Source: Nostoc commune NIES-4072 (GTDB taxonomy: Bacteria > Cyanobacteriota > Cyanobacteriia > Cyanobacteriales > Nostocaceae). From it: DNA of 64,000 bases. Every line of letters starts with the position of its first letter. Position 1 is the first letter of the stretch. Made by a program: the position numbers and the translations under genes. The stretch spans positions 124,001 to 188,000 of the forward strand of contig NZ_BDUD01000002.1 in NCBI RefSeq assembly GCF_003113895.1. Reading direction: 5' to 3'. The notes beneath the pieces are model-generated. The model saw only the letters and a list, made by a program, of their open reading frames with translations, had not been told where the DNA came from and did no database searches. Shown here piece after piece: positions 23,166-42,390 of this stretch.

Positions 23166-23193
23166 TATCTCTGGGTTGTCTGAGGTTATGCAA
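23166..23193 (-). promoter_or_regulatory. Bipartite promoter-like motif upstream of the caspase gene
   Basis: Read on the minus strand: TTGCATAACC, 12 bases, GAGATA. It starts about 45 bp before the caspase start codon. The identical arrangement lies at 25485, 33564 and 39099. Confidence 0.6.
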
Positions 23194-23406
23194 AAACCAA
23201 CATTTTTATAAATCTTCCGCTTCGTTGCTATATATTTTAGATATAAATGTAAATTTTACCAGTTCGCTATTAGAGAATCGTTTTGACTCTCGGCAGCTAG
23301 TTAAAAGCGATCGCCTGACATGAACTAATAGAGAAATTCGGTCTGAAATACAATTTTGAGTAGTGGGGCAAGATGCAATTTATACTGCACGCCGGAGGTA
23401 AACTAA

Positions 23407-23694
23407 ATGTCAGTAACCGCAGCAAAATGGACTTTGGAAGAATACCACCACATGATTAAGGCGGGCATTTTAGACGATCGCCAGGTTGAGTTATTGAGAG
23501 GAGAAATAGTTGAAATCTTCGCAGAAGGGGAACCCCACGCCTATTCTAGAAATGAAGCTGGAGAATACTTAGCAAAATTATTAGGTGATCAGGCTAAAGT
23601 CCGCCAAGACAGTCCGATTACCTTACCTAATAACTCTGAACCAGAACCAGATATTGCTGTTGTCCAAAATCTCGGACGAGAATATCGTTTTCAT
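23407..23694 (+). pseudogene. 5' half of a Uma2-family nuclease gene, truncated by IS66
   Basis: The first 96 codons match the Uma2 (PD-(D/E)XK, DUF820) family: WTLEEYHHMIKAGILDDRQVELLRGE, then EPEPDIAVVQNLGREYRF. The similarity stops exactly at 23694, where the IS66 end begins, and a few foreign codons follow to a stop. The catalytic second half is absent, so it is inactive. A complete relative is at 25709. Confidence 0.85.
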
Positions 23695-25243
23695 GTAAGG
23701 ATTCAGGTCTAATATTTAGGAAGCAGGGATGGGACAGACAAATAATTATTGGAATTAGCCAGCAGTGCTTGTGCAAAAAAATCAATCACAGACCGACTTT
23801 GACGACGGCAGGTTTGCACTACCGTCAACAGATGGGCAGTGTGTTTAAACCTGTCCATTGATCGGGAACCACCACTAACCTTACGTTTGGTCACAGCCAA
23901 ACGCAGCGATCGCTCGGCCTGATTGTTATCAGGAGGGATTTCAGGATTGTCAAGAAAATACCACCATTGACTTGCTTTATCACGCAAAGAACGTAAAAGG
24001 TGGCCAGCTGTAGCTCCTGCTTTGTCAATCCACTGATTGAGCGAGGAGTGCAACTTGGATTTGAATTGATTGACCCAATCGTTATAACTACTTGAATCAA
24101 GAGTCTTAAACCCGAAGAGCATAACTGCTAAAAGCTTCATCAATTAAATCAACAAAAGCTTCACCGATAGCTTGGTTGTGAAGACCTGGAAGTATAATTA
24201 GTTTTTTGAAGTGACGACGTAGATGAGCCAAACATTTCTGTTGGTCAGCCACTGCATAACCATTGTAAACACTAAAATCGTCGCTGCTGAGTACCCCTGT
24301 ATATTTAGCCCCTAAAATTGTTTCTAATTCGGATCGTGAGCGAGTATCAGCTGCTGTAAATAAACAGAAATCAGAATTAGCAACTACCCACAACCATTCT
24401 TTGATTCCTTTGACTGACCAAGGTGTTTCATCTACATGGATGTTAGGTTGGGTTTGTTTTACCCAATTACTTAATTCAATAATGCTTGGTTCAATTGCTT
24501 GAGTAATTCGTTCATTGGTGGCGACTAAAGTTCCTAACCCAATTTCAATTTGCCCCAGTTCCCACAACATTTCTTGCTGTTTTTCATAGGGCATGTGTGC
24601 ATAATTGTTTACCCATCCCAAGAACGCCTGTAATCTAACTCCTAAATCTTGCCCTGGAACGATATCTGGCGACCATGAGGCTGTTTGTATATTTCCACAG
24701 CATTCACACACGCACGTCTGACGTTGATACTCCACTATTTCAATGGGACGTTCCACTAATTGCGCTACAGACTGTTTTTCTATTTTTACTGCCACGGTCG
24801 CAAATGCTTTTTGACCGCAATAAACACAATCTTCTGGACGTAAGATTTCATAACGATCTACTCTGCCAAAACCAGAGCGCGTTTTTCCTCGATGCCCTGG
24901 TTGTCCTCCTGGTTTCCTTTTCGGAGCCTCACTCTCAAGAAGTTTATCCTGCTGCTTGTTCTCTGTTTTTTTGAGGATATCTCCCGATGGTGGTTTCGAT
25001 GATGTTTTACTATTCTATTTCTCTACTGACCTTGAGTTTCTCTAGTTCTTGTTCTAGTTTTAAAATTCTGGAGTTTAGTTTCTCTGTAGCGATCGCCTGC
25101 TCGACAATGATATCCACCAGTTGTTCCGGAGCCAACTGGAGAAGGGTTTCACGCTCTAGTTTCAGAGGCAGGTCTTTTTCCATAATTGTGATAGTCCGCC
25201 TTAGATGTCACACTTGTCAATACCCCTTGACCTGAATCCTTAC
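23695..25243 (-). mobile_element. IS66-family insertion sequence, degenerate
   Basis: The terminal inverted repeats GTAAGGATTCAGGTC (23695) and its complement (ending 25243) begin with the GTAAG typical of IS66 elements. Length 1549 bp. Flanking bases are not duplicated (left ...GTTTTCAT, right GTAATGCT), although IS66 elements normally make an 8-bp duplication. Truncated genes lie on both sides, which points to recombination or deletion after insertion. Confidence 0.85.
23709..25183 (-). pseudogene. IS66-family transposase, frameshifted
   Basis: Pieces of one DDE transposase in order: an N-terminal coiled segment (LNSRILKLEQELEKL) from ATG 25183, a frameshift near 25015, SKTSSKPPSGDILKK, a zinc-binding part (CVYCG, CVCECCG), and the catalytic core with HVDETPW and SSDDFSVYNGY. 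A second frameshift follows near 24115, before the C-terminal NNQAERSLRLAVTKRKVSGG. Two shifts make it inactive. It has no accessory TnpA/TnpB genes, as in several short IS66-group elements. Confidence 0.85.
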
Positions 25244-25442
25244 GTAATGCTTCTTTATATTGACTGTTATGAAACTGCTCATTACCTTGCTGAAACAGTC
25301 GGTCTGCTTCAACTTTGTGGTCTGCTGGTGTTTGCGCCAATACCTGCGACGCTTGGAATAGTGGAGGCAAATTTGCAATCGGCAGTGAAACAGTCAAGAT
25401 GAGAGTGGTCAATGCAGTTAAACTAAGTTTGCGATCGCGCAT
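25244..25442 (-). pseudogene. 5' fragment of a secreted TPR (CHAT-type) gene, cut by IS66
   Basis: It begins MRDRKLSLTALTTLILTV with a signal peptide ending VLAQT, then the start of a TPR (ADRLFQQGNEQFHNSQYKEAL), like the N-termini of the CHAT-TPR proteins at 28.9 and 36.8 kb. The coding sequence ends at the IS66 boundary. It still has the shared upstream promoter motif. Confidence 0.8.
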
Positions 25443-25484
25443 AGATTTTAGAGTTAGGGGTAAAGCAGGAAGTCTAAGGAGATA

Positions 25485-25512
25485 TATCTCTCACCTGCTG
25501 AAGGATATGCAA
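25485..25512 (-). promoter_or_regulatory. Bipartite promoter-like motif upstream of the truncated TPR gene
   Basis: Minus strand: TTTGCATATCC, 12 bases, GAGATATAT, about 40 bp before the start codon. One base differs from the other three in the first half (TATCC for TAACC). Confidence 0.55.
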
Positions 25513-25708
25513 ATTAGATTTACTGTGCAAGAGTCAACAAAAGCGATGGTCAACAGCTTGGTTTGTGACAAATCCGGGTGTGAGTGTATTGTAAATCAAG
25601 GTGTCTCACCCGTTTTACAAGAAAAATTAGCGATCGCAAGATGGGCAATAGCCAATGGATACAGATGGTAAACTGGAAAGTACATAACAGTTAAATCGGT
25701 GATGTCCC

Positions 25709-26398
25709 ATGAACGTTGTCACACCAAAGCGATTCACTATTGACGAATATCATCGGCTGATTGAACTGGAATTTCTCAAGGAGAGCGATCGCATTGAATT
25801 GATTCGCGGAGAACTAATTGAGATGGTAGCCAAAGGCACACCTCATACATTTTGCACAACTCGACTTTGTAGACAACTGGATCGATTGCTAGGCGATCGG
25901 GTTGTTGTGCGTTGTCAAGAGCCAATCATACTACCATCAGATAGTGAACCTGAACCAGATGTAGCGATCGCACGAGGAAATGAGACTGACTATCTTCCCC
26001 ATCATCCCTATCCTGAAGATATTTTTTTAGTGATTGAAATTTCAGACTCAACCCTAAATTACGACCAAACAACAAAGTTAGAAATCTACGCAGAAGCAGG
26101 AATTGCTGATTATTGGATTGTCAACTTAAATGTTCGCCAGCTTGAGCGTTACAGCCAACCGTATCAAAATGCTCAAGGTGAATTCAATTATCTCAGCAAG
26201 CAGATATCTTTGCCCCATCAGTCAGTAGCGATTCCTGGATTTGAAGATGTCTTATTAGACTTGAGTAGAATTTTTCCCACGGTTGTAGGCAGGGCAAACG
26301 CATCTAAATTACTCTTGATTACAACGAGGGTTAAGAACAAACCAAAAAATCAGGATTTCGGGTTTAATTATTTTTTAAGCCCCAAAGCGATCGCCTAA
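25709..26398 (+). CDS. Uma2-family (DUF820) restriction-endonuclease-like protein
   Basis: 229 residues with the complete Uma2 signature: FTIDEYHRLIELEFLKE, DRIELIRGELIEMVAKGTPH, SEPEPDVAIARG, and the catalytic core DIFLVIEISDSTLNYD followed by KLEIYAEAGIADYWIVNL. The acidic residues and the K-x-x-x-Y-A motif of the PD-(D/E)XK fold are present, so it may be active. These proteins are abundant in cyanobacteria and their substrates are unknown. The last 40 residues (after GFEDVLLDLSRIF) look like an added tail and end in a HIP1 site. Confidence 0.88.
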   Translation: MNVVTPKRFTIDEYHRLIELEFLKESDRIELIRGELIEMVAKGTPHTFCTTRLCRQLDRLLGDRVVVRCQEPIILPSDSEPEPDVAIARGNETDYLPHHPYPEDIFLVIEISDSTLNYDQTTKLEIYAEAGIADYWIVNLNVRQLERYSQPYQNAQGEFNYLSKQISLPHQSVAIPGFEDVLLDLSRIFPTVVGRANASKLLLITTRVKNKPKNQDFGFNYFLSPKAIA

Positions 26399-26717
26399 AA
26401 TTTTCGCAATAAGCAAGAGTTAATGACATTATTTTTAAGCCTATTGAGAATAGACTTTGCTTATTGACATGATGCGGCCGCCCTGCGGTTGTAGGTGGTT
26501 AGTCGTAGGTTGAGCAAAACCCAATCTAATCTACAAAAAATGGCGAAGGTATTCTTAGAAAATAGAGCTAATTATTGTGAGAGCGTTGAAAATCAAGATA
26601 TCTCATTTGTTGTGTCGGAAAATTCAGCGATCGCAAGATATTTTTGACTTGTAAATGAGTTTAATACTTGTGAACGAACCTTTGGCGTTGTGGAAATTTA
26701 TTCAAACCATAACCCTC
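26399..26717. other. Intergenic region without a recognised gene
   Basis: Nothing coding is seen. A stretch near 26579-26641 is about 70 percent similar to 25580-25642 on the other side of the Uma2 gene, both ending in a HIP1 site; this may be a diverged flanking repeat. Confidence 0.35.
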
Positions 26718-28871
26718 TTATCGCGCCTTTTTCACCGCCTGTACCGCCGCATCAGCGTTGACTAATCCTTTACCAAAGAAGTACTGCTGACCTTTAACTG
26801 AGGAAGAGACTGCACCTTTACTTCGTAATGAACCATATAATTTGGTATCTTCTTCAGAAATACTCAGCCCTTGATAACTGGCTGTAGATTTCAAGATACT
26901 AACCAAGCGTTTTCTGCTAAGTTCCCTATTTTCTCCTTTCATTAATGCAAGTACCCCCGCTACAGCTGGCGAAGAAAAGGATGTACCTTGCACCCACCAA
27001 TATTTACCTTTAAGATCAACCACAGAAGACCAACGAGATTCAGGATTCGGGATACCTTGCCAAAAGGCATTCAGCCAAGTACCGCCTGTGGCAGGAATTC
27101 CACCCAACAATCCTGGTGTATCTAAGTCGCCTCCGGGTGCAACTAGGTCTAATCTCTTACCGTAGTTACTGTAGGGCGCACGATTACCAACAATATTAGT
27201 TGCCCCAACTGCAACTACTCCTGTGTAAGCAGCAGGAAAAGATACTTGGTTGAGATTTTCGTTGCCAGCAGCAGCCACAATTACTAGTTTAGGATGTGCT
27301 TTGAGAACCTGTGCGATCGCCTCTTCTTCTCCCGGAGTTGGTAAACTACCACCCAGGCTAAGATTAATGATATCAGCACCGCGCGAGGCTGCATAGCCAA
27401 TGGCTTCAATGTATGCAGAAGGACTATAACTACCATTCAACCCAAATACCCGCACTGGTAAAATTTGAGCATTGGGAGCTACACCCACAAGTCCTTCACC
27501 ATTTTGCGGTTTAGCAGCAATAGTTCCACTCACATAAGTGCCGTGAAATTCCCCACCTATTTTATAAGTACGAAAAACATAACGTAAAACACTAGCGATT
27601 TGCTCTAGAGAGTAATCTGGATTTTTTTCCTTCACCTCCAGCGCTTCTTGGGGGTATTGCTGAACTAATTTGGCATCAGATAATTGGAAGGTATCTTGAA
27701 ATTTTGCACCGAGAATAGCCAACTCTACGGGGCTGACACGAGTATCAGCATCGCCGTTTTCGCAGGGGTTGCTGCTATTACCGCCAGCAGAAAAATCCCA
27801 ACCGTGGACTTCCCCTGGACATTTATCAGCAGCTTTTACTGTATACAAACTATCTGCCAAATCAGGATGATTCCATTGAATTAAACTATCTATGACTGCC
27901 ACAACGACACCGCGTCCGCCGTTGCTACGTTTCCAGGCATCTGTAACCCGCATATCTGTGCGAGACATAGCCGATTTTGTCGCTACAGTTGGTTTTTGCA
28001 GACAAGTTTGCAGTGATTCCCAGCTAGATACCTCCTCTTGCAGACATTGTTTGAGCGGTAAGCTATCCAAATGCCACGCCAATCCCAGGAAGTTGGTTTT
28101 CGGGGAAATAGCTCTGGTAGATTCAGGGGCAGTATTCTGTTTAGTCAGGTTGTAAAATTGCTGAGAATTTTTTAGATTAGCGACTTGTTTAGCAGCTGTT
28201 TTGAGATTTTGGTCAGTAATAGATTGAATAAAGTTGGGTGCAGCAGAAGTAACTCCCTTGACCTGGTTTAGCTGGTTGGCAGCATTGAGAATTTTTGTGC
28301 CAGTAGCGACAGTGGATTTGACTATATAGCGATCGCTATTAAAGCGCAATGGACGAATGATCGCTAAATTATTTTGCTGTAAAATTGTTTGTCTCTGAGC
28401 CTCAGTCAGTTTGGCATCAAAGCTGATGATAATTTCGTTAGGGATAATAATAATTTCTCGGCGTTGACTGCGACTTAGCACGGGTAGGGTAGTTTGTACA
28501 TAAGCTTGCTGTTGAATGTTCTGCTGCACAATATCTCTGGTTCCCATTGGCAGACTGACCACAGCATAATTCTCGCCCAAAGGACTGACCCTTGGCGGAG
28601 TAATGGCGCGAATACTACCCTGGAGGTCTTTTTGAAGTTGGAGGTACAGGGGAGTAGCCGCAAGATCACGAGTTGCCACTTTTTTAAAGGCAACTGCGAT
28701 CGTATCTTGCCGTTGGTTTAGGGGAATGCGTTGTCCTTTATAAAGGTAAAATAAATCACCATCCTCTTGGGTTTGAGCAACTGCGCTAACTTGTGGTGGA
28801 AGGGAGAACATACCCAAGCCAGACCAAACAAAACCAGTTAATAAAATGCCAGATGTAATGCGTTTCATCAT
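26718..28871 (-). CDS. Secreted S8 (subtilisin-type) serine peptidase
   Basis: 717 residues with an N-terminal signal (ITSGILLTGFVWSGLGMF). A propeptide-like region follows to about residue 300, including NEIIISFDAKLTEAQRQTIL, a fervidolysin-like prodomain pattern. The catalytic domain has Asp328 (VVAVIDSLIQWNHPDL), His443 (GEFHGTYVSGTIAA) and Ser631 (QGTSFSSPAVAG), with the oxyanion region VAAAGNENLN. An unusual insert of about 80 residues lies between Asp and His. It is probably exported and activated by propeptide removal. It is last in a same-strand run of CHAT, TPR and DUF928 genes, so it may be the effector or processing enzyme of that group. Confidence 0.9.
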   Translation of the reverse strand: MMKRITSGILLTGFVWSGLGMFSLPPQVSAVAQTQEDGDLFYLYKGQRIPLNQRQDTIAVAFKKVATRDLAATPLYLQLQKDLQGSIRAITPPRVSPLGENYAVVSLPMGTRDIVQQNIQQQAYVQTTLPVLSRSQRREIIIIPNEIIISFDAKLTEAQRQTILQQNNLAIIRPLRFNSDRYIVKSTVATGTKILNAANQLNQVKGVTSAAPNFIQSITDQNLKTAAKQVANLKNSQQFYNLTKQNTAPESTRAISPKTNFLGLAWHLDSLPLKQCLQEEVSSWESLQTCLQKPTVATKSAMSRTDMRVTDAWKRSNGGRGVVVAVIDSLIQWNHPDLADSLYTVKAADKCPGEVHGWDFSAGGNSSNPCENGDADTRVSPVELAILGAKFQDTFQLSDAKLVQQYPQEALEVKEKNPDYSLEQIASVLRYVFRTYKIGGEFHGTYVSGTIAAKPQNGEGLVGVAPNAQILPVRVFGLNGSYSPSAYIEAIGYAASRGADIINLSLGGSLPTPGEEEAIAQVLKAHPKLVIVAAAGNENLNQVSFPAAYTGVVAVGATNIVGNRAPYSNYGKRLDLVAPGGDLDTPGLLGGIPATGGTWLNAFWQGIPNPESRWSSVVDLKGKYWWVQGTSFSSPAVAGVLALMKGENRELSRKRLVSILKSTASYQGLSISEEDTKLYGSLRSKGAVSSSVKGQQYFFGKGLVNADAAVQAVKKAR

Positions 28872-28904
28872 GTTATTTTCTTTGATTAAAAGATTATTTT
28901 GTAG

Positions 28905-28962
28905 TCAGGTTTGTAGTAAGGGCTGAAGCCCTTAAGAAAGCACGCTTTGTGCTTACCACGAA
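28905..28962. repeat. Palindromic intergenic repeat (GTAGTAAG...CTTAC type)
   Basis: Contains GTTTGTAGTAAGGGCTGAAGCCCTTAAG, here described by its two stems GGGCTGAAGCCC and AAGCACGCTTTGTGCTT. It has the form of a dispersed hairpin repeat and may also end transcription. A relative is at 31370-31416. Confidence 0.5.
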
Positions 28963-28964
28963 CC

Positions 28965-31292
28965 CTAGTACTCGCCGATTAAGGTAAATGCAGCCCAATA
29001 TTTTGGTTCGGGATATTTTTGCATTGTTGTCAGCATGGCTTTTCTTAATGCCGTAGCTTTGTCAAGCTTTTGTTGCAGATTTTTATAAAACTCCGTCATC
29101 AGAAAAGATGTGGAATTATCATCAACTGCCCACAAGGAGACAATGACACTGGGGACACCTGCGCTAATTAAAGAGCGAGATAAGCCGATGACACCATCAC
29201 CAGTAATGCGTCCGCGTCCGGTGTCGCAAGCGCTGAGGACAACTAAATCTGCATTGAGCTTGAGATTCAGGATTTCTTCGGCGGTGAGTAAACCGTTATC
29301 ATTACCGGAGGGTGCAAGAGCGATCGCACTTCCCAATCCTCGGTTATCATCAAGTAATCCATGCGTTGCTAGATGAATGATTCGCGCAGAAGGCATTTTT
29401 TTGACTATTGCTGCTTTGGTGGCTTGCTTACCTGTAATTGCATCAGTTTTTAGCAGTGAAGCAATGTCTTGAGCTTCCTTTTTTGCCCACGGTAAATCTT
29501 TTAATTGTTCAGGGGATTGTCCAGGTTCCAACACCACTTTCGGCATGATAGGATTACCAACAATCAAGGCATTCTCTAGAGAAGTTGTAGTTTCTGCGCC
29601 TCGTTGTCTACGGGTTAAATCTAAAACCTGAATTGATGGCGCGGTGAGGATGGTGTGTTTTTCAATTAGGTATTTGCCTTGTTCATCTTGCAGCGCTGGG
29701 AAGGGAACGAGGAATAGGGAACTTTGGGGAATGAAGATAACACGGTTATTCTCATTGCTGGATAAAAGGTCTGCAATGGGCTTGATTAACAATTCATGCA
29801 GCCGCTTTAATTGGTTAAGATTTTCACTGGCTATAATACCACCCCTGACACCGATAGATTGGCGGCTGGTAGTAACGAGTTTTGCTAAAGTTGTATTTTC
29901 TTTTTGCAAGAGGGATTCGAGGTCAGATTCGCGGAAAGTAACTTCACCTGTCGGCTTAATTACCCAAATGTAGAGTTTTGATTTGTCGTCACCAATAACT
30001 GAGTATTGAACTAAGGTTGCGTTTTGCTGTTTGGCGATTTTCTGTAACAACGGTAATGTCGGTTTATCAACAACAGGTTCGCTTGTGGTAACACCTTTAC
30101 CATTGGTAGACAAGCGTCTAGCTAATAAATCCACAAATGCCCTAGCGCGTCCCCACTCAGAAACTTCCAAAGCTTCGTTATTTTTTTCCTGCCCGATTAG
30201 CACTTGTTGCAGTCCTTGGTAAATTTTTGCTTCCTGCTCAAAAATTGACACCTTATAGGCATCATTATTACCTAATTTTTTCCGTAGAGATTCATGAACA
30301 TCAATCGCATCCCGTAAGCTTTTCTCTGCTTCTGGGAGTTTACCAAATAGAGCAAGGGTCAAGCCTAAATTGTACAGGTTTATTGCTTCTCCTCTGGTAT
30401 ATTTAACTTCTCGCGCAATTAGTAGACTTTGCTGATAATATTCAACAGCTTTACTATAGTTTTTAAGCCGACTATAAGCACTGGCTAAATATCCTAATGT
30501 TTGACTTTCACCGAGGCGATCGCGAAATTCTCGCTGAATTGCCAAATCCTTTTCAAAATAGTCAATCGCTTTAGCAGCCTCGCCTTTCGAGGCGTAAACT
30601 AGTCCTATATTTCCCAGTACTTGCCCCTCTCCTTGCCGTTGTTTTTGGGAGCGAGCAATGGACAAGAATTGCTGATAGTAATCAATTGCTTTATCGTATT
30701 CAGATTTTTGATAGTAAATGTTACCAAGAGTCATGAGTGCCTGAGCTTCATCACTAACGCTTTTACCTCTTCGTGTGACCGTTAAATGATTCTGAATAAA
30801 TTGACCACTAAATGTAGCTGTTCGTGCGCTAGCTAAATGTTGCTGACTGTATTTAATTGCTTGTTCATAATCAGCTATTAAATAGTAAGCTCGACTCAGA
30901 TAGTCGAGAAATTTCATTTCTGCCGAACTGTCTAGAATTTCTCCAGCGAGTGCTAAACCTTGCCGAGAAACATCAATTGCAGCAGCATAATCTTCCTGAC
31001 TGAGGTAAACCTCGCTCAGGGCTTTTAAAATAGACACTGCTGTTGATTGGTCTTTATTAGCCTTTGCGATCGCTAAACCCTGCTGATAAAATTCTATTGC
31101 TCGTGGTATGTTATTGAGTTCCTTATAATAATCACCAAGCTTTACTAAAGATAGTGCCTCACTATTTGCAGTTTGAGCCGATACTGACGGGGATTGAAAT
31201 ACTAGTAGAAAATTGGCGGGTATAAATGAAATAATTAAGGTAAGAGTGGTAAATACGGTTAAGCTAATTCGGCGATAATGTATAGTTTTCAT
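28965..31292 (-). CDS. Secreted TPR-CHAT protease-like protein
   Basis: 775 residues with a signal peptide (LTVFTTLTLIISFIPANFLL, ending VSAQT), then about seven TPRs (residues 45-360), a linker (ALEVSEWGRARAFVDLLARRL), and a CHAT domain from about 430 to the end. The CHAT dyad is intact: His644 (HLATHG) and Cys689 (LSACDTG). CHAT domains are caspase-like cysteine proteases; the TPRs probably bind the trigger or substrate. It is preceded by half of the regional promoter motif (TTTGCATAACC near 31335) but lacks the GAGATA half. It belongs to the same-strand protease group. Confidence 0.9.
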   Translation of the reverse strand: MKTIHYRRISLTVFTTLTLIISFIPANFLLVFQSPSVSAQTANSEALSLVKLGDYYKELNNIPRAIEFYQQGLAIAKANKDQSTAVSILKALSEVYLSQEDYAAAIDVSRQGLALAGEILDSSAEMKFLDYLSRAYYLIADYEQAIKYSQQHLASARTATFSGQFIQNHLTVTRRGKSVSDEAQALMTLGNIYYQKSEYDKAIDYYQQFLSIARSQKQRQGEGQVLGNIGLVYASKGEAAKAIDYFEKDLAIQREFRDRLGESQTLGYLASAYSRLKNYSKAVEYYQQSLLIAREVKYTRGEAINLYNLGLTLALFGKLPEAEKSLRDAIDVHESLRKKLGNNDAYKVSIFEQEAKIYQGLQQVLIGQEKNNEALEVSEWGRARAFVDLLARRLSTNGKGVTTSEPVVDKPTLPLLQKIAKQQNATLVQYSVIGDDKSKLYIWVIKPTGEVTFRESDLESLLQKENTTLAKLVTTSRQSIGVRGGIIASENLNQLKRLHELLIKPIADLLSSNENNRVIFIPQSSLFLVPFPALQDEQGKYLIEKHTILTAPSIQVLDLTRRQRGAETTTSLENALIVGNPIMPKVVLEPGQSPEQLKDLPWAKKEAQDIASLLKTDAITGKQATKAAIVKKMPSARIIHLATHGLLDDNRGLGSAIALAPSGNDNGLLTAEEILNLKLNADLVVLSACDTGRGRITGDGVIGLSRSLISAGVPSVIVSLWAVDDNSTSFLMTEFYKNLQQKLDKATALRKAMLTTMQKYPEPKYWAAFTLIGEY

Positions 31293-31369
31293 ATTGTTAC
31301 CTACAAAATCAGAAGTTTCAAAACGCTACTAAAAGGTTATGCAAATCTCACAGTTGAAAAGTAAATTGA

Positions 31370-31416
31370 GGTTTGTAGTAAGCATAAAGCGTGCTTAAAA
31401 AGTGCTTACTACGTAC
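31370..31416. repeat. Palindromic intergenic repeat (GTAGTAAG...CTTACTAC type)
   Basis: GTAGTAAGCA...GTGCTTACTAC flanks a GC-rich centre with AAGCGTGCTT. Related in ends and centre to the repeat at 28905; likely a dispersed hairpin repeat at a gene boundary. Confidence 0.5.
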
Positions 31417-31431
31417 CACAAAAATATGCCA

Positions 31432-32865
31432 TTAGGACACGCCAATCAGAGTAAAAGCCGCCCAATCTCTAGGATTTGGATACTTTTTCATCGTTGCTAA
31501 CATCGCTTGACGCAGGGCAGAAGCTTTATGCGGGTTTTTACTTAGATTTTCATAAAACTTAGTCATTAGCAACACAGTTTCTCTGTCCGCCGGACTCCAC
31601 AAAGAACCAACGACACTAGGCACACCTGCGCTAAAGAAAGAGCGAGATAACCCAATAACTCCATCTCCAGTAATTTTGCCTAAAGCTGTATCACAACTAC
31701 TTAAAACAACTAACTCTGCATTCAGCTTCAAATTCATAACTTCTTCAGATTTCAACCAACCATCATCTTGACTCGACGGTGCAAAAGCTAGTTTACCAGG
31801 GATACTCATTCCCTCAAACTCAAGAATACCTTGTGTTGCAAAGTGAATAATTCTAGCTTGGGACATTCGCTGTTTAACTGTAGTTTCGGTTGCTACATCA
31901 CCTGTAAGTGCTTGGGTATTGAAAAGACGAGCAATTTCGTTTGCTTCCTCTTCTGCACCCGTTAGCGGACTTAGTTTCTGCGGCTTTTCTCCAGGCTTCG
32001 GCGCTATGCTGGGCATGGTGGGATTACCGACTATAAGCACCTCCTTAGCTACACCTTGAATTTGCTGCTGTCGTTGATAAAGTAAATCCAGCACCTGAAT
32101 CGAGGGAGCGGTGGAAATGGTATGTTTTTGAATTAAGTATTTACCCTTTGCATCTGGTAACGCCGCGAAGGGAACAAGAAACAGCGAATTTTGAGGAATG
32201 AAAATAATTTTATCATCCGGTTTAGTTGGTAAAACGTCTGCAATGGGTTGAATTAATAGTTGATGTAATTTTTGCAATTTTTCTGTTAAGCGATTATCTC
32301 CTCTAGATTTTCCCTTATGTATAACTAAGCCTTTAACATTTCCCCGGCTGACACCAATCGACTGACGACTACTGGTTATTAAATTAGTTAAAGATGTTTT
32401 TTGTTTCTGCCACAGAGGTTTCAGATCAACGCTACGAAAAATGATTTCACCTGTAGGTTTGACTGCCCAAATATACAGTTCTAATTCTTGAGTTTGGCGT
32501 TTACCTCCAAGGTTCAACTCATCAGTTATAATTGAATATTCAACAAGTGTAGCGTTTTGTTGTTTGGCAACTTGTTTAATTTTGATAATTGATGGAGAAA
32601 CAGATAAATCATCTGTTGGCGATAAGCGCTTTACCAATAAATCCACCAATGCACGGGTACGACCTCTTTCAGAAACTTCTAGCGCTGCTTCGTTTGGATT
32701 TTGAGCAATAAGGGTTTTTTGCAGTTGCTGGTAGGATGGCGCTTGGGTATTTACAGTTTGCGCTAATACCTTATTTGCCCTTAATAAATTTAAAGGCATT
32801 GAGATAGTAGCCACAATAATGATAAAAGCCGGAGCCAGTTTAGGGATTAAGTGTAAAAAGGTCAT
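31432..32865 (-). CDS. CHAT-domain protein without TPRs and with the catalytic His replaced
   Basis: 477 residues with a signal peptide (ending VLAQT) followed directly by the linker helix (LQKTLIAQNPNEAALEVSERGR) and a full-length CHAT domain. Compared with its neighbour the whole TPR array is missing, as if deleted in frame. Cys391 (LSSCDT) is kept but the catalytic His is Gln345 (HFATQG, codon CAA). It is therefore probably not a protease; it could be a regulatory pseudo-enzyme or a decaying gene. The frame is intact over the whole length, which argues for retained function. It lacks the regional promoter motif. Confidence 0.82.
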   Translation of the reverse strand: MTFLHLIPKLAPAFIIIVATISMPLNLLRANKVLAQTVNTQAPSYQQLQKTLIAQNPNEAALEVSERGRTRALVDLLVKRLSPTDDLSVSPSIIKIKQVAKQQNATLVEYSIITDELNLGGKRQTQELELYIWAVKPTGEIIFRSVDLKPLWQKQKTSLTNLITSSRQSIGVSRGNVKGLVIHKGKSRGDNRLTEKLQKLHQLLIQPIADVLPTKPDDKIIFIPQNSLFLVPFAALPDAKGKYLIQKHTISTAPSIQVLDLLYQRQQQIQGVAKEVLIVGNPTMPSIAPKPGEKPQKLSPLTGAEEEANEIARLFNTQALTGDVATETTVKQRMSQARIIHFATQGILEFEGMSIPGKLAFAPSSQDDGWLKSEEVMNLKLNAELVVLSSCDTALGKITGDGVIGLSRSFFSAGVPSVVGSLWSPADRETVLLMTKFYENLSKNPHKASALRQAMLATMKKYPNPRDWAAFTLIGVS

Positions 32866-32947
32866 TTTTTGATTTCGTGATGATTTGGCTGTTCTCTAAA
32901 GGTTCACCAAACCCGATTTTTCAAACAAATCGGGTTTGGGGTAGCGT

Positions 32948-33454
32948 TTAACTCTCCTGTATCTTCTCAATTGCGTCGGTTACTTTTTGGGCAAATTCCT
33001 GATTACCTTCTTGTTTAAAGAGTCTGAATGCTTTCTGTAAATCTGCGATCGCACCTTGTTTGTCTTTTAAAGCAAAGTTTGTAAAACCTCGGAAATAATA
33101 AGCATAAGCAATATCGTGATTAATTTCTAAAGCTTTGTCAAAATCTATCTTTGCTGCTTGATAGTCTTCCAAACTAAAATTGCCTAATCCTCTACCAAGG
33201 TAAGCATAAGCATTATCAGGTTCAATCTTCAGGATTTGGTTAAAATCTTCAATTGCCCCCTGATAATCTTTCGACTCCAAGCGTTTAAAAGCCCGTTTTA
33301 AGTATTCTTCGGTATCATTTTTATTTTCAGTTTGTGAGTCGGTAACTTGTGCTATTACTTGTCGAGTATTTAACAAGTTTTTAGCTTCAGCTTTCGGTGC
33401 AAAAGTCAATATTCCAAATACTAGAATTACTGCTGCTAATTTCAAACTTTTCAT
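32948..33454 (-). CDS. Secreted TPR protein
   Basis: 168 residues: a signal peptide (LAAVILVFGILTFAPKAEA), then three TPRs (KDYQGAIEDFNQILKIEPDN; EDYQAAKIDFDKALEINHD; KDKQGAIADLQKAF). Probably a periplasmic scaffold for protein contacts. It is preceded by the regional promoter motif about 110 bp upstream, the longest distance of the four, so it may be the first gene of a transcript that continues into the CHAT genes at 32.9-29.0 kb. Confidence 0.8.
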   Translation of the reverse strand: MKSLKLAAVILVFGILTFAPKAEAKNLLNTRQVIAQVTDSQTENKNDTEEYLKRAFKRLESKDYQGAIEDFNQILKIEPDNAYAYLGRGLGNFSLEDYQAAKIDFDKALEINHDIAYAYYFRGFTNFALKDKQGAIADLQKAFRLFKQEGNQEFAQKVTDAIEKIQES

Positions 33455-33563
33455 TGTTGTGTCTCCTCAAATACTAAGTGTTTTTATTGATTAGTAAACC
33501 AATCGATGTTACCGATTGCGAAACTCTTCGATTGCAAAGGTTTACTTGCTGCTCACAGGTATA

Positions 33564-33592
33564 TATCTCTGAGTGTTGAGAGGTTATGCAAA
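33564..33592 (-). promoter_or_regulatory. Bipartite promoter-like motif upstream of the TPR gene
   Basis: Minus strand: TTTTGCATAACC, 12 bases, GAGATATATA. Same spacing as at 23166, 25485 and 39099. Confidence 0.6.
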
Positions 33593-33606
33593 ATCAGAGC
33601 GATTTG

Positions 33607-34302
33607 CTAACGAGTCGCGGAATTCTTAGCGTCTGATTTAGGTACGTCACACAAGTTATCGATATTTTTGATCATCTCCTGCAATCCATCTGAACGATTT
33701 TGCACGGAGTAAGCTTGCTGTAAGGCATCTGACCACAGATTAGAATCAGCAAAGTACTTGGCTTTAGCAAAGGCGATCGCCTCAATATCTGCTCCTTGTG
33801 CTTGTAGTTGATTTTCTAAAGTCTTCAATTCTGCGGTGATACGATCGCGCTGTTGCGTCTCCATAATTTGAAATGGGACGAATCTCGATGAGTTGACCAT
33901 CCATTGGTAAGTTTGACCTGGTTGTAGTGGTTGACCTTGATAGGTAATATTCTGAGTCTGTGTTACTGGTTGATTCCATAAGTCTTGCTCACTATTTATT
34001 GGACGTACTGCTATTGTTTGCACTCGACCTTTCCAAATAAATAACGGGCGATCGCTCCAAACAATTCTGGGTTTAGCGGGAGCGTCTGGGGAAACCATAC
34101 AGATAGCATCACTGGGACGAGAACCACCTTTGCGCGGTTCCACTGGAGGCTTTTTACTAAATAGAATTCGAGAAATATTTGCCCAAGAAAAGGTTTGTTG
34201 TATTGAACTTTTTTTAGCAGGTATCGCTTGATTAGATAGAACAGGTGCAGTACTCAAAGCGATAGTTGATAGCACCACAATATGTAATAAAAGTTTATTC
34301 AT
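33607..34302 (-). CDS. DUF928-like secreted protein
   Basis: 231 residues with a signal peptide (LLLHIVVLSTIALSTAPVLS). It then has the DUF928 pattern seen beside CHAT proteins in cyanobacteria: RKGGSRPSDAICMVSPD, PRIVWSDRPLFIWKG, GQTYQWMVNSSRFVPFQIM, and a helical C-terminus with TPR-like features. Its start overlaps the CHAT-CHASE2 gene by 8 bp, so they are translationally coupled and likely act together at the membrane or in the periplasm. The biochemical role of DUF928 is unknown. Confidence 0.75.
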   Translation of the reverse strand: MNKLLLHIVVLSTIALSTAPVLSNQAIPAKKSSIQQTFSWANISRILFSKKPPVEPRKGGSRPSDAICMVSPDAPAKPRIVWSDRPLFIWKGRVQTIAVRPINSEQDLWNQPVTQTQNITYQGQPLQPGQTYQWMVNSSRFVPFQIMETQQRDRITAELKTLENQLQAQGADIEAIAFAKAKYFADSNLWSDALQQAYSVQNRSDGLQEMIKNIDNLCDVPKSDAKNSATR

Positions 34303-36733
34303 GAGTTTTCCTTTTGGAAATAGTAGGTAAAGCGTAAAACCAGAATGCTATCGATGGTAAAGACCAAGGTAATAGGATTGCAGTTGCAGATATATAAATT
34401 TGCAAGCTAACCAGTCCATACAACCCTGTAATAATACTGGGCAACATTAACGATTGCAATAGAGAATACTGCTTACTTGGTCGCAGTAAATATATCGTTT
34501 TGCCTAGCAATATCGCTATGCAAATCATCCAGAAATCGGGAATTGGAATAACTAATCTCTGAGTTAGAAAATGATGTATTATGTAAGCATGATATTGTCC
34601 ACCTGTAAATACTTTGCTTTTGTTAATGGGATTTTCTTGATTGCGCCAGTATTTAATAGCAGGTGGTGACTCGGAATCTTTAAAAGTATCATCACCATCT
34701 TTGACAATCCCAGCTTCGTTATATCCTCCGGGTGCAATAATCACAATTTGCTGCTGTAAGCTTTGAGGAACAGCTTGATTTTCTAAGAATTGCCAAGCCG
34801 GAATAGAATGATATACCTGATTAGGGGGAATGGAAAAGTCAATGATTGGGTGTAACCAACTTTGCTTGAGTGAATAACTCAAAGCTGTAACTAATTGTAG
34901 ATGCGATCGCTCTGATTTTAAAATCGTTTGATTAGCTTTATTAGCATCTTTTAAAAAATCACTAATCTGTTGAAAAAAGTCTATTTTGCTGTCGATTTTT
35001 GGCTGCGGTGCGTTGGGAATTTGTTGCAATTGATACCCAAGAGCTAATAAACTAGCAAAGTGCCAAGGCTGGGATTGAAAATCATCATGGGGTAACAGTT
35101 CCATATACCAAGGATAATTGTCAATTTCCCCTTCTAAACTCCAATTAAGATTAGCAATTTCAGGTAGTACCCTCAGCCATACGTTGTCGTTAGAAGTTGC
35201 AGAAAATACAAACAATGTCGGACTGGGTGAAGAACTTACAGCAGCTTGAATAGATTTGGCAAGAATGCGATCGCCTTGCTCTTGATGCCGATCCAGGAGA
35301 TAATCGATACCGACTACCCTAGCCTTATTAGCCGTCAGTTGGTCAACTAGACTCGCCAAATACTGACGATTCATCGGCTTAGGGTTGGATATTTTGGCGA
35401 GTCTAATCGATTCTTCGTCAATTTGCACCAAGAGGACTGGCGGTAGACTTGCAACACTTGCAACTTGACGGGTAATTTGACGATAGAAAGCCTGTACCAG
35501 TACACGCCGTTGTAACAAAAAGCTCTGCACTGGCAATAGTAAACTAATTATTAGCAAAACCGAAAGTGCGATCGCTTCTTGACGACTTGGTTTCAAACTC
35601 TTAAAAAATTCCTTGATACCAAAAGGTTGGAGGCGAAATAAGTCTGCTTCTGGATGGCGAAACAAAGAGGGAATTAGATAAGCACTTGGATAAGTGAAAT
35701 TCTTTTCTAACTTCAGATATTTCGATGCTGCTAATAATGATTCGTGGACATCTTGATATTGAGCTAATGCTTGGATAAATTGCAGAAAAAATTCTCCAGC
35801 AACGCGATTGTGAATTGGTTCGCGCATGACTGCAACCTGACTTAATCCTAAGTCAATGAGTTTATTAGCAATGCTTAAACCCTTGCAAGAATTAAAAATA
35901 GCAACCTGCAATCCTCTTGATTTAGCAGTAATTAATGGCTGTTCTATCTCACTAATTAATAAAGCTACATTGGGAGCGATCGCTATTTCTCCACCAGTCA
36001 AACTTGTTTCATTACTGTGACCTGCAAAGAATAAAATGTCCCATCCTGCTTCTGAGGCTATTTCCTGAACAATTTTAGTTTTTAATTCAGTAATACTTTC
36101 GTGGGGTTGCCAACCAATAAAAGTAATTTTAGCTACCGATTCTAAGGAACTTACAGTTGATTTTTCTGTTTTGAAATCTAAACCACTTTCATCTCCTAAA
36201 ATTACTAAAATTCTAGCTTTCCGAGCATGGTAGCCATTAGTATTTATTGCTTCACACCTATTTATCGGTGTGCGGACAATACGAATTTTACTATAATCGA
36301 GAGCAAATTCTGCGCCAAGTTCCCAGACTTCCCACGGTAATCGTGACAATTCTAGAGGATTACAAGTTATAAAAATATCAATATAGCGATTATTGCTGTT
36401 TTTGGTTGCTTGGGCGATCGCTGCCCGAATTTCATATAATTCTGCACTGCGTAACCAGTGATGAAATTCATATAAAAGTTGTGCTTCTGCCTGGACTAGT
36501 TGCGAGTGCCAATCAACAGGCGGTGTAGTAAAACTCCCAATCTCTTCTACTTTGCCTCGCAATTTTGTGTTATAAAAACGGAGATAAATTCGCTGCCATT
36601 CTTGGTATTTGAAATCCAGATCATCAGGATAGGCGAGTGTCACACCAAGTTGCTGACCCTTACCCCAAGATAGTTCAAATGCACAAAGTTGATCGAATTG
36701 TTGAACTTTTAAATTAAAAATAGAAGCAGTCAT
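34295..36733 (-). CDS. CHAT-CHASE2 membrane protein
   Basis: 812 residues. The N-terminal half is cytoplasmic with a CHAT domain (about residues 120-350), His239 (FFAGHS) and Cys283 (FNSCKG) both present. One membrane segment (about 387-407, SVLLIISLLLPVQSF) leads to an extracytoplasmic CHASE2 sensor (about 420-690, PPVLLVQIDEESI; VVGIDYLLDR). Three closing membrane helices end the protein. The design suggests that a signal sensed outside controls a caspase-like domain inside. It overlaps the DUF928 gene downstream and follows the TPR-CHAT/DUF1822/sigma-like genes upstream, all on one strand. Confidence 0.88.
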   Translation of the reverse strand: MTASIFNLKVQQFDQLCAFELSWGKGQQLGVTLAYPDDLDFKYQEWQRIYLRFYNTKLRGKVEEIGSFTTPPVDWHSQLVQAEAQLLYEFHHWLRSAELYEIRAAIAQATKNSNNRYIDIFITCNPLELSRLPWEVWELGAEFALDYSKIRIVRTPINRCEAINTNGYHARKARILVILGDESGLDFKTEKSTVSSLESVAKITFIGWQPHESITELKTKIVQEIASEAGWDILFFAGHSNETSLTGGEIAIAPNVALLISEIEQPLITAKSRGLQVAIFNSCKGLSIANKLIDLGLSQVAVMREPIHNRVAGEFFLQFIQALAQYQDVHESLLAASKYLKLEKNFTYPSAYLIPSLFRHPEADLFRLQPFGIKEFFKSLKPSRQEAIALSVLLIISLLLPVQSFLLQRRVLVQAFYRQITRQVASVASLPPVLLVQIDEESIRLAKISNPKPMNRQYLASLVDQLTANKARVVGIDYLLDRHQEQGDRILAKSIQAAVSSSPSPTLFVFSATSNDNVWLRVLPEIANLNWSLEGEIDNYPWYMELLPHDDFQSQPWHFASLLALGYQLQQIPNAPQPKIDSKIDFFQQISDFLKDANKANQTILKSERSHLQLVTALSYSLKQSWLHPIIDFSIPPNQVYHSIPAWQFLENQAVPQSLQQQIVIIAPGGYNEAGIVKDGDDTFKDSESPPAIKYWRNQENPINKSKVFTGGQYHAYIIHHFLTQRLVIPIPDFWMICIAILLGKTIYLLRPSKQYSLLQSLMLPSIITGLYGLVSLQIYISATAILLPWSLPSIAFWFYALPTISKRKTHE

Positions 36734-36816
36734 AATTAATTAACCGCCGATAAACCCTGATAAAATATACTGTAAACTCTTTCCGTTCCCTCTCTGCGCC
36801 TCTGTGTGAACTTTTC

Positions 36817-39048
36817 CTAAGACTCCCCAATCAACGTAAAAGCCGCCCAATTAACAGGCTGAGGATGCTTTTTCATAGTAATCAGCATCGCATTCCGTAA
36901 AGCCACAGCCTTATCAGGATTTTGTTCCCATTGTTGATAGAACTCCGTCATTAATTCTGATGTGGCTGAATCAGGAACTTTCCACAAAGAGACAATCACA
37001 CTCGGCGCGCCAGCCGTAATCAAAGAACGAGATAATCCAACCACACCATCACCAGTAATTGCACCTCTACCAGTGTCGCAAGCGCTTAACACCACTAATT
37101 CAGCGTTGATTTTTAAATCGACAATTTCCGCAGGGGTGAGCAAACCGTCATCGTTACTGGTGGGTGTAAGGGCGATCGCGCTTGGTATACTCTTATCAGC
37201 ATCATCTAACAATCCATGCGTTGCTAAATGAATAATCCTGGCAGTTGATAATTTTTCTTTAAAAGCCGCTTTTGTGGCATCTTTACCAGTTGGTTTAATA
37301 ACCCAAATGTAAAGTTTTGATTCCATAATTGAATATTCAACAAGTGTGGCATTTTGTACTTTAGCAATTTGCTTAATTTGCTCAATATTAGGTGGTTTGA
37401 TCGCTTGTTGATTGTCGATATTTCCAGATATCTTGGAGGCTAATAACTCAATAAAGGCTCTAGCTCGACTTCGTTCAGATATTTCTAATGCTGTGTTAGT
37501 TTTATTTTGGGCAATTAAAGCTTTTTGTAAAAAACGGTAGGTAGAAGCTTGTGTTTCAAAGATTGATATTTTTTGGTCATCAGTTAAATCTCGTGTTCGC
37601 AGAGTCTCGTTAACTTTAATAGCAGCAAATAAGGTTTTTTCCGCATCGGCATATTTACTCTGACTGCCATAAACTACGCCAATATTGCTAAGAGTTATCC
37701 CTTGTCCTGCTGTATCACCGATTTGTTTGTGAATAGCTAAGGCTTGCTGATAAAACTCTAATGCTTTGGTGTATTGTCCAAGAATGGCGTAAACTCCCCC
37801 AATATTGCTGAGAGTTAGCCCTTTTCCTGCTTTATTGCGTATTTGTTTGTGAATAGCTAAGGCTTGCTGATAAGACTTCAAGCCCTCGGCATACTGTCCC
37901 TGACTTTTGTAAACTTTGCCAATATTGTTGAGAGTAAACCCTTCTCCTGCTTTGTCGCTAATTTGTTTACGAATTGCTAAAGCTTTCTGATAAGACTCCA
38001 ATGCTTTGGCGTACTGCCCTAGACTGTCATAAACTACGCCAATATTGTTGAGAGTTATGCCTTCCCCTACTTTGTAGTCAATTTGTTTGTGAATTGCTAA
38101 AGCTTGCTGATAAAACTCTAATGCTTTGGCATACTGTCCTAAATCATCGTAAACTGCGGCAATATTGTTGAAAGTTGTTCCTTCTAGCACCTTAGTGCCG
38201 ACTTGTTGGTGAATAGCTAAACCTTGCTGAAAGAACTTTAATGCTTTGGCATAGTGTCCTTGATTTTTGTAAACTGTAGCAATATTGTTGAGAGTTACCC
38301 CTTCCGCTGCTTGGTTGCGGAATTGTTTGTGAATTGCTAAAGCTTGCTGATGAAACTCTAATGCTTTGGCATACTCTCCTTGATTTTGGTAAACGGTGCC
38401 AATATTGCTGAGAATTACCCCTTCCGCTGCTTGGTTGCGGAATTGTTTATGAACAGCTAAGGCTTTCTGATATAACTCCAATGCTTTGGCATACTCTCCC
38501 AGCTTGTCGTAAACTTGTCCAATATTGTTGAGAATTATTCCTTTATGTGCTTGATTAGCAAGTTGTTTCTCAATAGCTAAACCTTGCTCATGGAACTCCA
38601 ACGCTTTGGTGTATTGTCCCAGACTCTCGTAAATTTTGCCAATATTGCTGAGAGTTATAGCTTCCCCGGATTTATCACCCATTTCTTTAAGAATAGCTAA
38701 AGCTTGCACAGAAACCTCTAAGGCTTTGGTGTATTGTCCCAGGTTCTCGTAATTTGCCCCAATACTATTGAGAGTTGCACCTTCGCCTTGGCGATCACCT
38801 ATTTGTCTAAAAATGACTAAAGCTTGTTCAAAAGTCTTTACCGCTTGTTGAAATTGACTTTGACTAAGCTGTTGAAAACCTAATTGAGTCAGTTGCAGTG
38901 CTTCTTCCCTAAGTTCTTGTGTCGTTTGCGCCTGTGCAGTCAGAATAGTTGGCACTAATCTTCTTGTCTTTGATTGAGCAAAACTTGTAAATAAGAACAG
39001 CGAAAGCACTAAAGTAGCAACAGAGAGGAATTTAAGACGATAATGCAC
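36817..39048 (-). CDS. Secreted protein with eleven 40-residue TPRs and a shortened CHAT domain
   Basis: 743 residues from a GTG at 39048 with GGAGG upstream; a TTG at 39126 would place the promoter motif inside the gene. A signal segment (FLSVATLVLSLFLFTSFA) is followed by about eleven kinesin-light-chain-type TPRs of exactly 40 residues (typical: NNIGVVYDSLGQYAKALESY). The CHAT part keeps His611 (HLATHG) and Cys657 (LSACDTG). However, about 170 residues present in the 28.9-kb homologue between LYIWVIKPTG and the ATKAA helix are missing, an in-frame deletion that removes the first half of the domain. Activity is therefore doubtful. The regional promoter motif lies about 50 bp upstream. Confidence 0.85.
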   Translation of the reverse strand: MHYRLKFLSVATLVLSLFLFTSFAQSKTRRLVPTILTAQAQTTQELREEALQLTQLGFQQLSQSQFQQAVKTFEQALVIFRQIGDRQGEGATLNSIGANYENLGQYTKALEVSVQALAILKEMGDKSGEAITLSNIGKIYESLGQYTKALEFHEQGLAIEKQLANQAHKGIILNNIGQVYDKLGEYAKALELYQKALAVHKQFRNQAAEGVILSNIGTVYQNQGEYAKALEFHQQALAIHKQFRNQAAEGVTLNNIATVYKNQGHYAKALKFFQQGLAIHQQVGTKVLEGTTFNNIAAVYDDLGQYAKALEFYQQALAIHKQIDYKVGEGITLNNIGVVYDSLGQYAKALESYQKALAIRKQISDKAGEGFTLNNIGKVYKSQGQYAEGLKSYQQALAIHKQIRNKAGKGLTLSNIGGVYAILGQYTKALEFYQQALAIHKQIGDTAGQGITLSNIGVVYGSQSKYADAEKTLFAAIKVNETLRTRDLTDDQKISIFETQASTYRFLQKALIAQNKTNTALEISERSRARAFIELLASKISGNIDNQQAIKPPNIEQIKQIAKVQNATLVEYSIMESKLYIWVIKPTGKDATKAAFKEKLSTARIIHLATHGLLDDADKSIPSAIALTPTSNDDGLLTPAEIVDLKINAELVVLSACDTGRGAITGDGVVGLSRSLITAGAPSVIVSLWKVPDSATSELMTEFYQQWEQNPDKAVALRNAMLITMKKHPQPVNWAAFTLIGES

Positions 39049-39098
39049 GAGAAGCAGTCCTCCAAGCAGTGTGAGAGTATTTACTGGCTGATTATCTA

Positions 39099-39126
39099 TA
39101 TCTCTCACGCTTGGGAGGTTATGCAA
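39099..39126 (-). promoter_or_regulatory. Bipartite promoter-like motif upstream of the TPR-CHAT gene
   Basis: Minus strand: TTGCATAACC, 12 bases, GAGATATA, about 50 bp before the GTG start at 39048. Same spacing as the other three sites. Confidence 0.6.
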
Positions 39127-39193
39127 AAATTTTGTTTGTAGTTGCCAAATTTAACCTACAAAGGTTTGTAACAAACAAGTTTCAGTTAGCGAT

Positions 39194-39337
39194 CGCCTAA
39201 ACCAAGGTTTAGAAATCAACTACGCCATCAGGTTTCCATTCCACAAATTCATCAAACGTCAATAGCGCCTAAACCAAGGTTTAGAAATCAACTACGCCAT
39301 CAGGTTTCCATTCCACAAATTCATCAAACGTCAATAG
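39194..39337. repeat. Tandem duplication of 72 bp
   Basis: Positions 39194-39265 and 39266-39337 are two consecutive identical copies, beginning CGCCTAAACC and ending GTCAATAG. The copies contain part of a Uma2-type gene start on the minus strand. It looks like a recent slip or recombination event. Confidence 0.9.
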
Positions 39338-39364
39338 ATTGAGTTGTGCTATGGCTTGAGACAT
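39284..39364 (-). pseudogene. N-terminal remnant of a Uma2-family gene
   Basis: From an ATG at 39364 the minus strand reads MSQAIAQLNLLTFDEFVEW, then KPDGVVDF and a stop, the typical first strand of Uma2 nucleases (L-T-F-x-E-F-x-x-W). Only this piece is left; the tandem duplication repeats most of it. Confidence 0.6.
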
Positions 39365-42209: not shown

Positions 42210-42390
42210 AAATATTTGAACTCAACCATCAACAGCAGTATTGCCTGACATTCATTCTTAACTCCAGACTCACTGATCTTATGCAGTTTTAGCTTGTATG
42301 ACAAAAACTCATTCAGGACAAAAACTGCGGTTTGTCCATGCACTGCGCTTTAGCTGATTGCGGTAAGCATAGCCATGCTGTCAGGCTGCG

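Follow-up and report, generated by a model that had tools for sequence, protein, structure and literature searches.

A candidate sigma-factor promoter linking caspase, CHAT and TPR genes of a Nostoc commune cluster to a divergent sigma-70-like protein

To our knowledge, the caspases and CHAT proteins of cyanobacteria have mostly been treated as cell-death or immune effectors. In a gene cluster of Nostoc commune NIES-4072 (assembly GCF_003113895.1, contig NZ_BDUD01000002.1, positions 124,001-188,000, forward strand), a bipartite motif recurs before caspase, CHAT and TPR genes, close to the gene of a divergent sigma-70-like protein, here called SIG (40782-42209, minus strand). We refer to these 64,000 nucleotides (nt) as the window and give all coordinates within it; the motif sites first described lie at 23166-39126. 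Our comparison suggests that the motif is very probably a dedicated, autoregulated -35/-10 promoter read by SIG, which would control a protease regulon with many export-like products. A preliminary description of this DNA had proposed an alternative-sigma promoter (or a regulator site), and the sigma reading is supported by the co-occurrence of the motif with SIG, its position before genes, its spacing of 12 or 13 nt, a conserved variant upstream of SIG, the predicted fold of SIG and a divergent SIG subfamily.

In the window, the motif is present on the minus strand three times exactly and once with a single change, as had been described, except that the third site ends at 33591 and not at 33592 (Table 1). 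With up to three mismatches allowed, the window holds four matches where 0.56 are expected, a number reached in none of 100 shuffles. Scored with a weight matrix made from the sites of other genomes (window excluded, same-genus loci retained), the four sites reach 31.3-34.5 bits, the next best place in the window 10.2 and the best in the reversed window 6.1; since the matrix sites were picked by core consensus, the information content of the core is given by construction. A fifth place, before the CHAT gene at 28965, had been reported to carry only the first half, and the GCATAACC starting at 31342 does combine a good left half (18.0 bits) with a total of 5.8 bits and no -10. The mean pairwise identity of the four sites is close to the random value of 0.26 in the 60 bases upstream (0.25), the spacers (0.32) and the 40 bases downstream (0.30), and is 0.95 and 1.0 in the two boxes. 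The boxes are thus maintained by selection and do not stem from recent duplication, against which the differing spacers had already been taken to speak. The distances of 40-110 bp from site to gene also hold, but the site at 25485 precedes only a gene remnant and the TTG start (39126) listed for the CHAT-TPR gene 36817-39126 overlaps the motif; by our estimate, translation probably begins at the GTG of position 39048 instead.

Over the whole 8.2-Mb genome, exact GCATAACC-N12-GAGATA is found only at these three places of the window, and with up to two mismatches there are 54 matches vs 53 in the reversed control, hence no genome-wide excess. The relaxed form TGCATA-N14-RGARWTA matches eight times (control 0); five of these matches, the sigma-gene site among them, are on one strand within the 19-kb cluster. 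The genome has one SIG gene, 30 CHAT matches (29 above the cut-off) and seven caspase matches, and since all four strict sites are inside the cluster, the CHAT and caspase genes elsewhere are without the strict motif. A genome scan had been proposed as a check for a CHAT, caspase and TPR regulon; in this strain it shows the strict motif to be local to the cluster and not a general mark of CHAT or caspase genes.

Relatives of SIG were found in 14 of 59 near genomes (its own counted) and, at E<=1e-30, in 133 of the 388 genomes of the order; 80 named loci were retained from 178 SIG relatives. The sets of loci partly overlap for some genomes, and distinct counts are stated beside the raw ones. In the window together with 99 loci that overlap in part, 68 copies of GCATAWCC (52 distinct) have a -10-like word 12 or 13 nt further on, while the reversed control gave one match over all spacings from 5 to 23. 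The spacing, constant at 12 in the window as first noted, is not constant in relatives: among 135 distinct sites outside the window it is 12 in 90, 13 in 43, and 11 and 14 in one each. The motif has the layout of a sigma promoter, with two asymmetric boxes, a spacing of 12 or 13 in 133 of the 135 distinct sites, and a place just upstream of genes. The strict pattern TGCATAWCCYN{10,11}AGARATA matches 136 times in 52 of the 388 genomes (reversed control 5), and occurs in 46 of the 133 genomes with SIG vs 6 of the 255 without; 128 of the 136 sites lie in SIG-bearing genomes (Fisher odds ratio 21.9, p 3e-18, with no correction for kinship). Forty-nine of these sites have one of the 90 top-scoring SIG genes within 40 kb and 87 do not, although the latter figure rests on those 90 genes and on shared contigs, and fragmented assemblies may hide linkage. 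In one genome of three contigs (G156), two sites are more than 1 Mb from the SIG gene on the same contig.

The 93 site records used for the downstream genes represent 90 distinct sites, six of the 93 being inside an open reading frame (ORF) of at least 150 amino acids; an ORF starts within 320 nt downstream in 65 of the 93, at a median of 51 nt. Thirty records had no ORF of at least 80 amino acids starting within 320 nt and were left unclassified; of the remaining 63, 58 were analysed, after exclusion of three near SIG (checked by hand), SIG itself and a masked one. The controls were 100 ORFs drawn at random from 137 in 20 chosen regions of the same genomes. First ORFs after the SIG-distant sites match families of the cluster in 33 of 58 cases (23 CHAT-TPR, four caspase, four S8, one TPR and one DUF1822) vs 4 of 100 controls, and all four control matches stem from a single SIG locus included by chance. 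Pfam assigned TPR_12 to 23 of the 58 ORFs, CHAT to five, S8 to four and caspase to four; CHAT at 5/58 is an undercount, since many of these ORFs are cut by locus ends. The 25 families listed for the 100 controls include none of these four, so that each is present in at most two of the control ORFs. At the level of sequence, the comparison thus shows the motif as belonging to SIG-bearing genomes and SIG-linked gene families, and we infer that SIG is its reader.

The site before the sigma-like gene, which had been called degenerate, is real, but it lies at 42259-42285 and not at 42270-42297. Upstream of SIG, TGCATANNN-N12/13-GARWTA is found in 43 of 96 rows (reversed 0/96), or in 39 of 88 distinct proteins (reversed 0), and the typical form in relatives is AACTGCATAAG-N12-AGAGTTAAGAA. 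The variant thus represents a second promoter class that is conserved. A divergent SIG subfamily offers a further comparison. The main motif is present 115 times in 94 main loci (99 distinct; reversed 0) and 0 times in 26 divergent loci, whereas an unbiased count of dyads found ATAAG-N15-TCTAT in 9 of 25 divergent loci (shuffled maximum 3), three of the nine (L289, L290 and L293) having near-identical SIG N termini. The typical form there is TGCATAAG-N13-CATCTAT, in which CATCTA replaces GAGTTA, both reading xAxxTA; it stands upstream of SIG in L063, L288, L294 and L301, with similar sites in L305, L289, L290, L293 and L295. A looser test was positive in 10 of 25 loci (reversed 2), and 12 of 25 passed neither test. 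Across whole loci the divergent pattern is found five times (reversed 1) in divergent and twice (reversed 5) in main loci. A common -35 with an altered -10 is the expected outcome of divergence in the sigma2 part, and to this modest extent the subfamily may be taken to favour SIG as the reader. Four SIG genes of both subfamilies coexist in one genome (G032; L034, L045, L048 and L049), which would make a natural test of promoter orthogonality.

The protein itself is less easily placed. An extracytoplasmic function (ECF, group IV) sigma factor has about 200 amino acids, with sigma2 and sigma4 only. SIG falls outside this class, having 475 amino acids and, in its model, helices that separate the sigma2-like part from the sigma4-like one; its predicted fold looks sigma-like. 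Several observations nevertheless weigh against SIG as the reader of the motif and against what we build on it. Foldseek with the SIG model gave no match at E<=0.001 (best 0.098), and in the fold comparison the long VIA alignments have root-mean-square deviations of mostly 13-17 A. SIG has no Pfam match, and hence no Pfam sigma model; for 63 SIG members, 89 families matched and the 25 of these that were listed include no sigma model; NCBIfam sigma70-ECF (TIGR02937) scores 15.3 bits where the cut-off is 42.9; and PDB sequence searches, single and profile, gave no sigma factor among the matches listed. The strict motif is lacking in 87 of the 133 SIG-bearing genomes, some of which may carry the divergent subfamily, and in the strict scan of the NIES-4072 genome it is lacking at the other CHAT and caspase genes. 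Conversely, six genomes with the motif have no SIG even at E 1e-3, two of them being 76% and 88% complete and two having a CHAT-TPR gene after the site. The variant upstream of SIG is unlike the effector sites in both boxes, and a second factor may act there. Finally, no known anti-sigma factor is among the matches listed for the model of the neighbouring DUF1822 protein, and the signal-peptide calls used below come from a simple home-made heuristic. The SIG lineage escapes the Pfam and NCBIfam profiles applied here, so that regulators of this kind probably go unannotated more often than others.

Could the motif be something other than a sigma promoter? It might be the operator of a DNA-binding regulator, such as a response regulator, co-inherited with the cluster, and the six genomes with the motif and no detectable SIG would fit such a regulator, as would the fact that the evidence consists of co-occurrence and position. 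However, the halves are dissimilar and non-palindromic, the spacing differs by one, the next ORF typically starts at the short distance given above, the predicted fold of SIG looks sigma-like, and 9 of 25 divergent-subfamily loci join the common -35 to a different -10, which together make an operator improbable. It is less probable still that the sites are ordinary housekeeping-sigma promoters retained by descent of the cluster. TTGCAT is similar to the -35 consensus TTGACA, but no TATAAT-like box was seen in the sequence about 17 nt past it, the CC after TGCATAW and the AGARATA are conserved over unrelated flanks and in distant genomes, and the pattern is rare in the absence of SIG (6 of 255 genomes).

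We give almost no credence to recent duplication of promoter segments together with their genes. The gene families of the cluster are paralogous, and one relative (L055) has three tandem promoter copies 81 bp apart (5658, 5739 and 5820, minus strand) before a single TPR gene, but the motif also stands in front of genes of unrelated families (caspase, S8 and TPR), and for the four window sites this origin is ruled out by the random identity of their flanks.

With SIG as the reader, the promoter would consist of a -35 TGCATAWCC and a -10 AGARATA, the parts GCATAWCC and GARATA being 12 or 13 nt apart. SIG would start its own operon from the conserved variant TGCATAAG-N13-GAGTTA and drive the genes of caspase, CHAT, TPR, subtilase and related proteins, many of which carry export signals; this regulon would be the cluster itself in NIES-4072 and be spread over the genome in some relatives. 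By the heuristic mentioned above, 30 of the 58 downstream ORFs are signal-peptide-like vs 22 of the 100 controls. In the loci, the same holds for S8 (14/19), CHAT (8/9), CHAT-TPR (50/77), small TPR (14/19) and DUF928 (38/52) proteins, and for 0 of 9 caspases, six of which show a twin-arginine pattern; the figures are 0/94 for SIG, 0/64 for CHASE2-CHAT and 11/92 for DUF1822, distinct counts being similar. Unmarked SIG and CHASE2-CHAT proteins beside marked effectors suggest a cytoplasmic or membrane switch with exported effectors, and the many export-like targets point to envelope or intercellular proteolysis.

As for the switch, 67 loci have at least 8 kb of sequence downstream of SIG. In 63 of them (57 of the 60 whose SIG proteins are distinct) the first gene to be recognised is DUF1822, and in 52 (47 of the 60) CHASE2-CHAT is found within 9 kb. 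The CHASE2-CHAT protein has its CHAT domain before the hydrophobic segment (membrane segments judged by eye) and keeps an H239/C283 catalytic pair in 61 of 65 rows, the other four being gapped. The DUF1822 model (predicted local distance difference test, pLDDT, 87) comprises helices, an alpha/beta part and a beta sandwich, and inspection of the sequence by eye revealed no obvious membrane segment. More speculatively, SIG may be kept inactive by DUF1822; on a trigger from outside the cytoplasm, the CHASE2-CHAT protease of the membrane may inactivate DUF1822 and thereby free SIG, with the released regulon's proteases acting in the periplasm or thylakoid lumen. The complete scheme, a protease-to-protease switch in which CHASE2-CHAT cuts DUF1822 and frees a profile-missed, autoregulated sigma factor serving exported caspases, CHAT proteins and subtilases through one promoter class, is a tentative proposal that we consider rather doubtful as a whole. 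If true, it would parallel Craspase without involving CRISPR, arming the periplasm or intercellular spaces of filamentous cyanobacteria.

Parts of this arrangement have been described. Neighbourhoods of EACC2-caspase, ECF-sigma and DUF1822 genes were reported in PMC8195603 (Kaur et al. 2021, eLife 10:e70394), where the sigma factor was suggested to mediate transcription of many genes and an immunity or apoptosis reading was given. As judged from the sections of that paper on these neighbourhoods, the present cluster resembles them in combining a sigma gene with DUF1822 and a caspase-like protein, possibly with CHASE2. Those sections contain no promoter or target genes, whereas here promoter and regulon are derived by comparison and many targets are export-like; they also label DUF1822 a TPR protein, in contrast to the mixed fold modelled here. 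In Craspase/CASP, as outlined in the relevant parts of PMC10028731 (Strecker et al. 2022), Csx29 is a TPR-CHAT protease, Csx30 an inhibitor and CASP-sigma the sigma factor. Likewise, our cluster joins a CHAT protease, a putative inhibitor and a sigma factor, with sigma sites within its own locus and apparent positive autoregulation, so that the Csx29-Csx30-CASP-sigma relay may serve as a precedent for a CHASE2-CHAT/DUF1822/SIG relay. Unlike Craspase, it has no CRISPR effector among the annotated neighbours (no search aimed at Cas7-11 or Csx30 was made), its proposed sensor is a membrane CHASE2-CHAT protein, and DUF1822, as a putative inhibitor, is likened to Csx30 by role alone. The same parts of PMC10028731 recall the protease-released sigma factors of Escherichia coli (RseA/sigmaE) and Bacillus subtilis (RsiW/sigmaW), in which an envelope signal frees a stress-response sigma, as an envelope-side signal would free SIG. 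SIG differs from these in being about twice the ECF size, its sigma2-like and sigma4-like parts separated by a helical one, and DUF1822 in its apparent lack of a membrane segment. The promoter, its targets and the export pattern were not found described in the literature searched, which was not exhaustive. We would rate the system as an alternative-sigma regulon whose sigma lineage and targets are both unusual, in a gene neighbourhood known since 2021. A defined promoter class with its sigma factor would provide a direct handle: the members of the regulon could be identified from any genome sequence, and a single operon would suffice for testing the switch.

Table 1. Promoter sites and genes of the N. 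commune NIES-4072 cluster (window coordinates).
Feature	Position	Strand	Remarks
Promoter site 1, TTGCATAACC-N12-GAGATA	23166..23193	-	exact; 44 nt upstream of caspase gene
Promoter site 2, one change	25485..25512	-	upstream of truncated CHAT-TPR-like gene remnant
Half site, -35-like TTGCATAACC without matching -10	31317..31344	-	upstream of CHAT-TPR gene 28965-31292
Promoter site 3, exact	33564..33591	-	109 nt upstream of small TPR gene, then CHAT gene
Promoter site 4, exact	39099..39126	-	50 nt upstream of probable GTG start of CHAT-TPR gene
Sigma-gene promoter variant TGCATAAG-N13-GAGTTA	42259..42285	-	49 nt upstream of SIG start; related sites in relatives
Caspase (Peptidase_C14), twin-arginine-like N terminus	20833..23121	-	
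CHAT-TPR-like gene remnant, 97 codons, cut by IS66-type element	25149..25442	-	
S8 subtilase, without own motif in this strain	26718..28871	-	
CHAT-TPR protein, signal-peptide-like	28965..31292	-	
CHAT protein, signal-peptide-like	31432..32865	-	
Small TPR protein, signal-peptide-like	32948..33454	-	
DUF928-like protein, signal-peptide-like	33607..34302	-	
CHASE2-CHAT protein: N-terminal CHAT, hydrophobic segment, CHASE2; proposed sensor protease	34295..36733	-	
CHAT-TPR protein, signal-peptide-like N terminus	36817..39048	-	start estimated
DUF1822 protein, directly after SIG in most loci; proposed inhibitor	39436..40779	-	
SIG, divergent sigma-70-like protein, 475 amino acids, predicted motif reader	40782..42209	-	

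In some relatives the S8 gene is directly preceded by the motif. An IS66-type element at about 23695-25243, whose inverted ends of 15 bp lie at 23695-23709 and 25229-25243, interrupts the CHAT-TPR-like gene after about 68 codons, and over its first 68 residues the remnant matches CHAT-TPR proteins from relatives (E down to 4e-13); promoter site 2 upstream of it is still intact. Between the DUF1822 gene and promoter site 4 lies a head-to-tail repeat of some 70 bp (about 39190-39340), which looks like a degraded piece of a gene.
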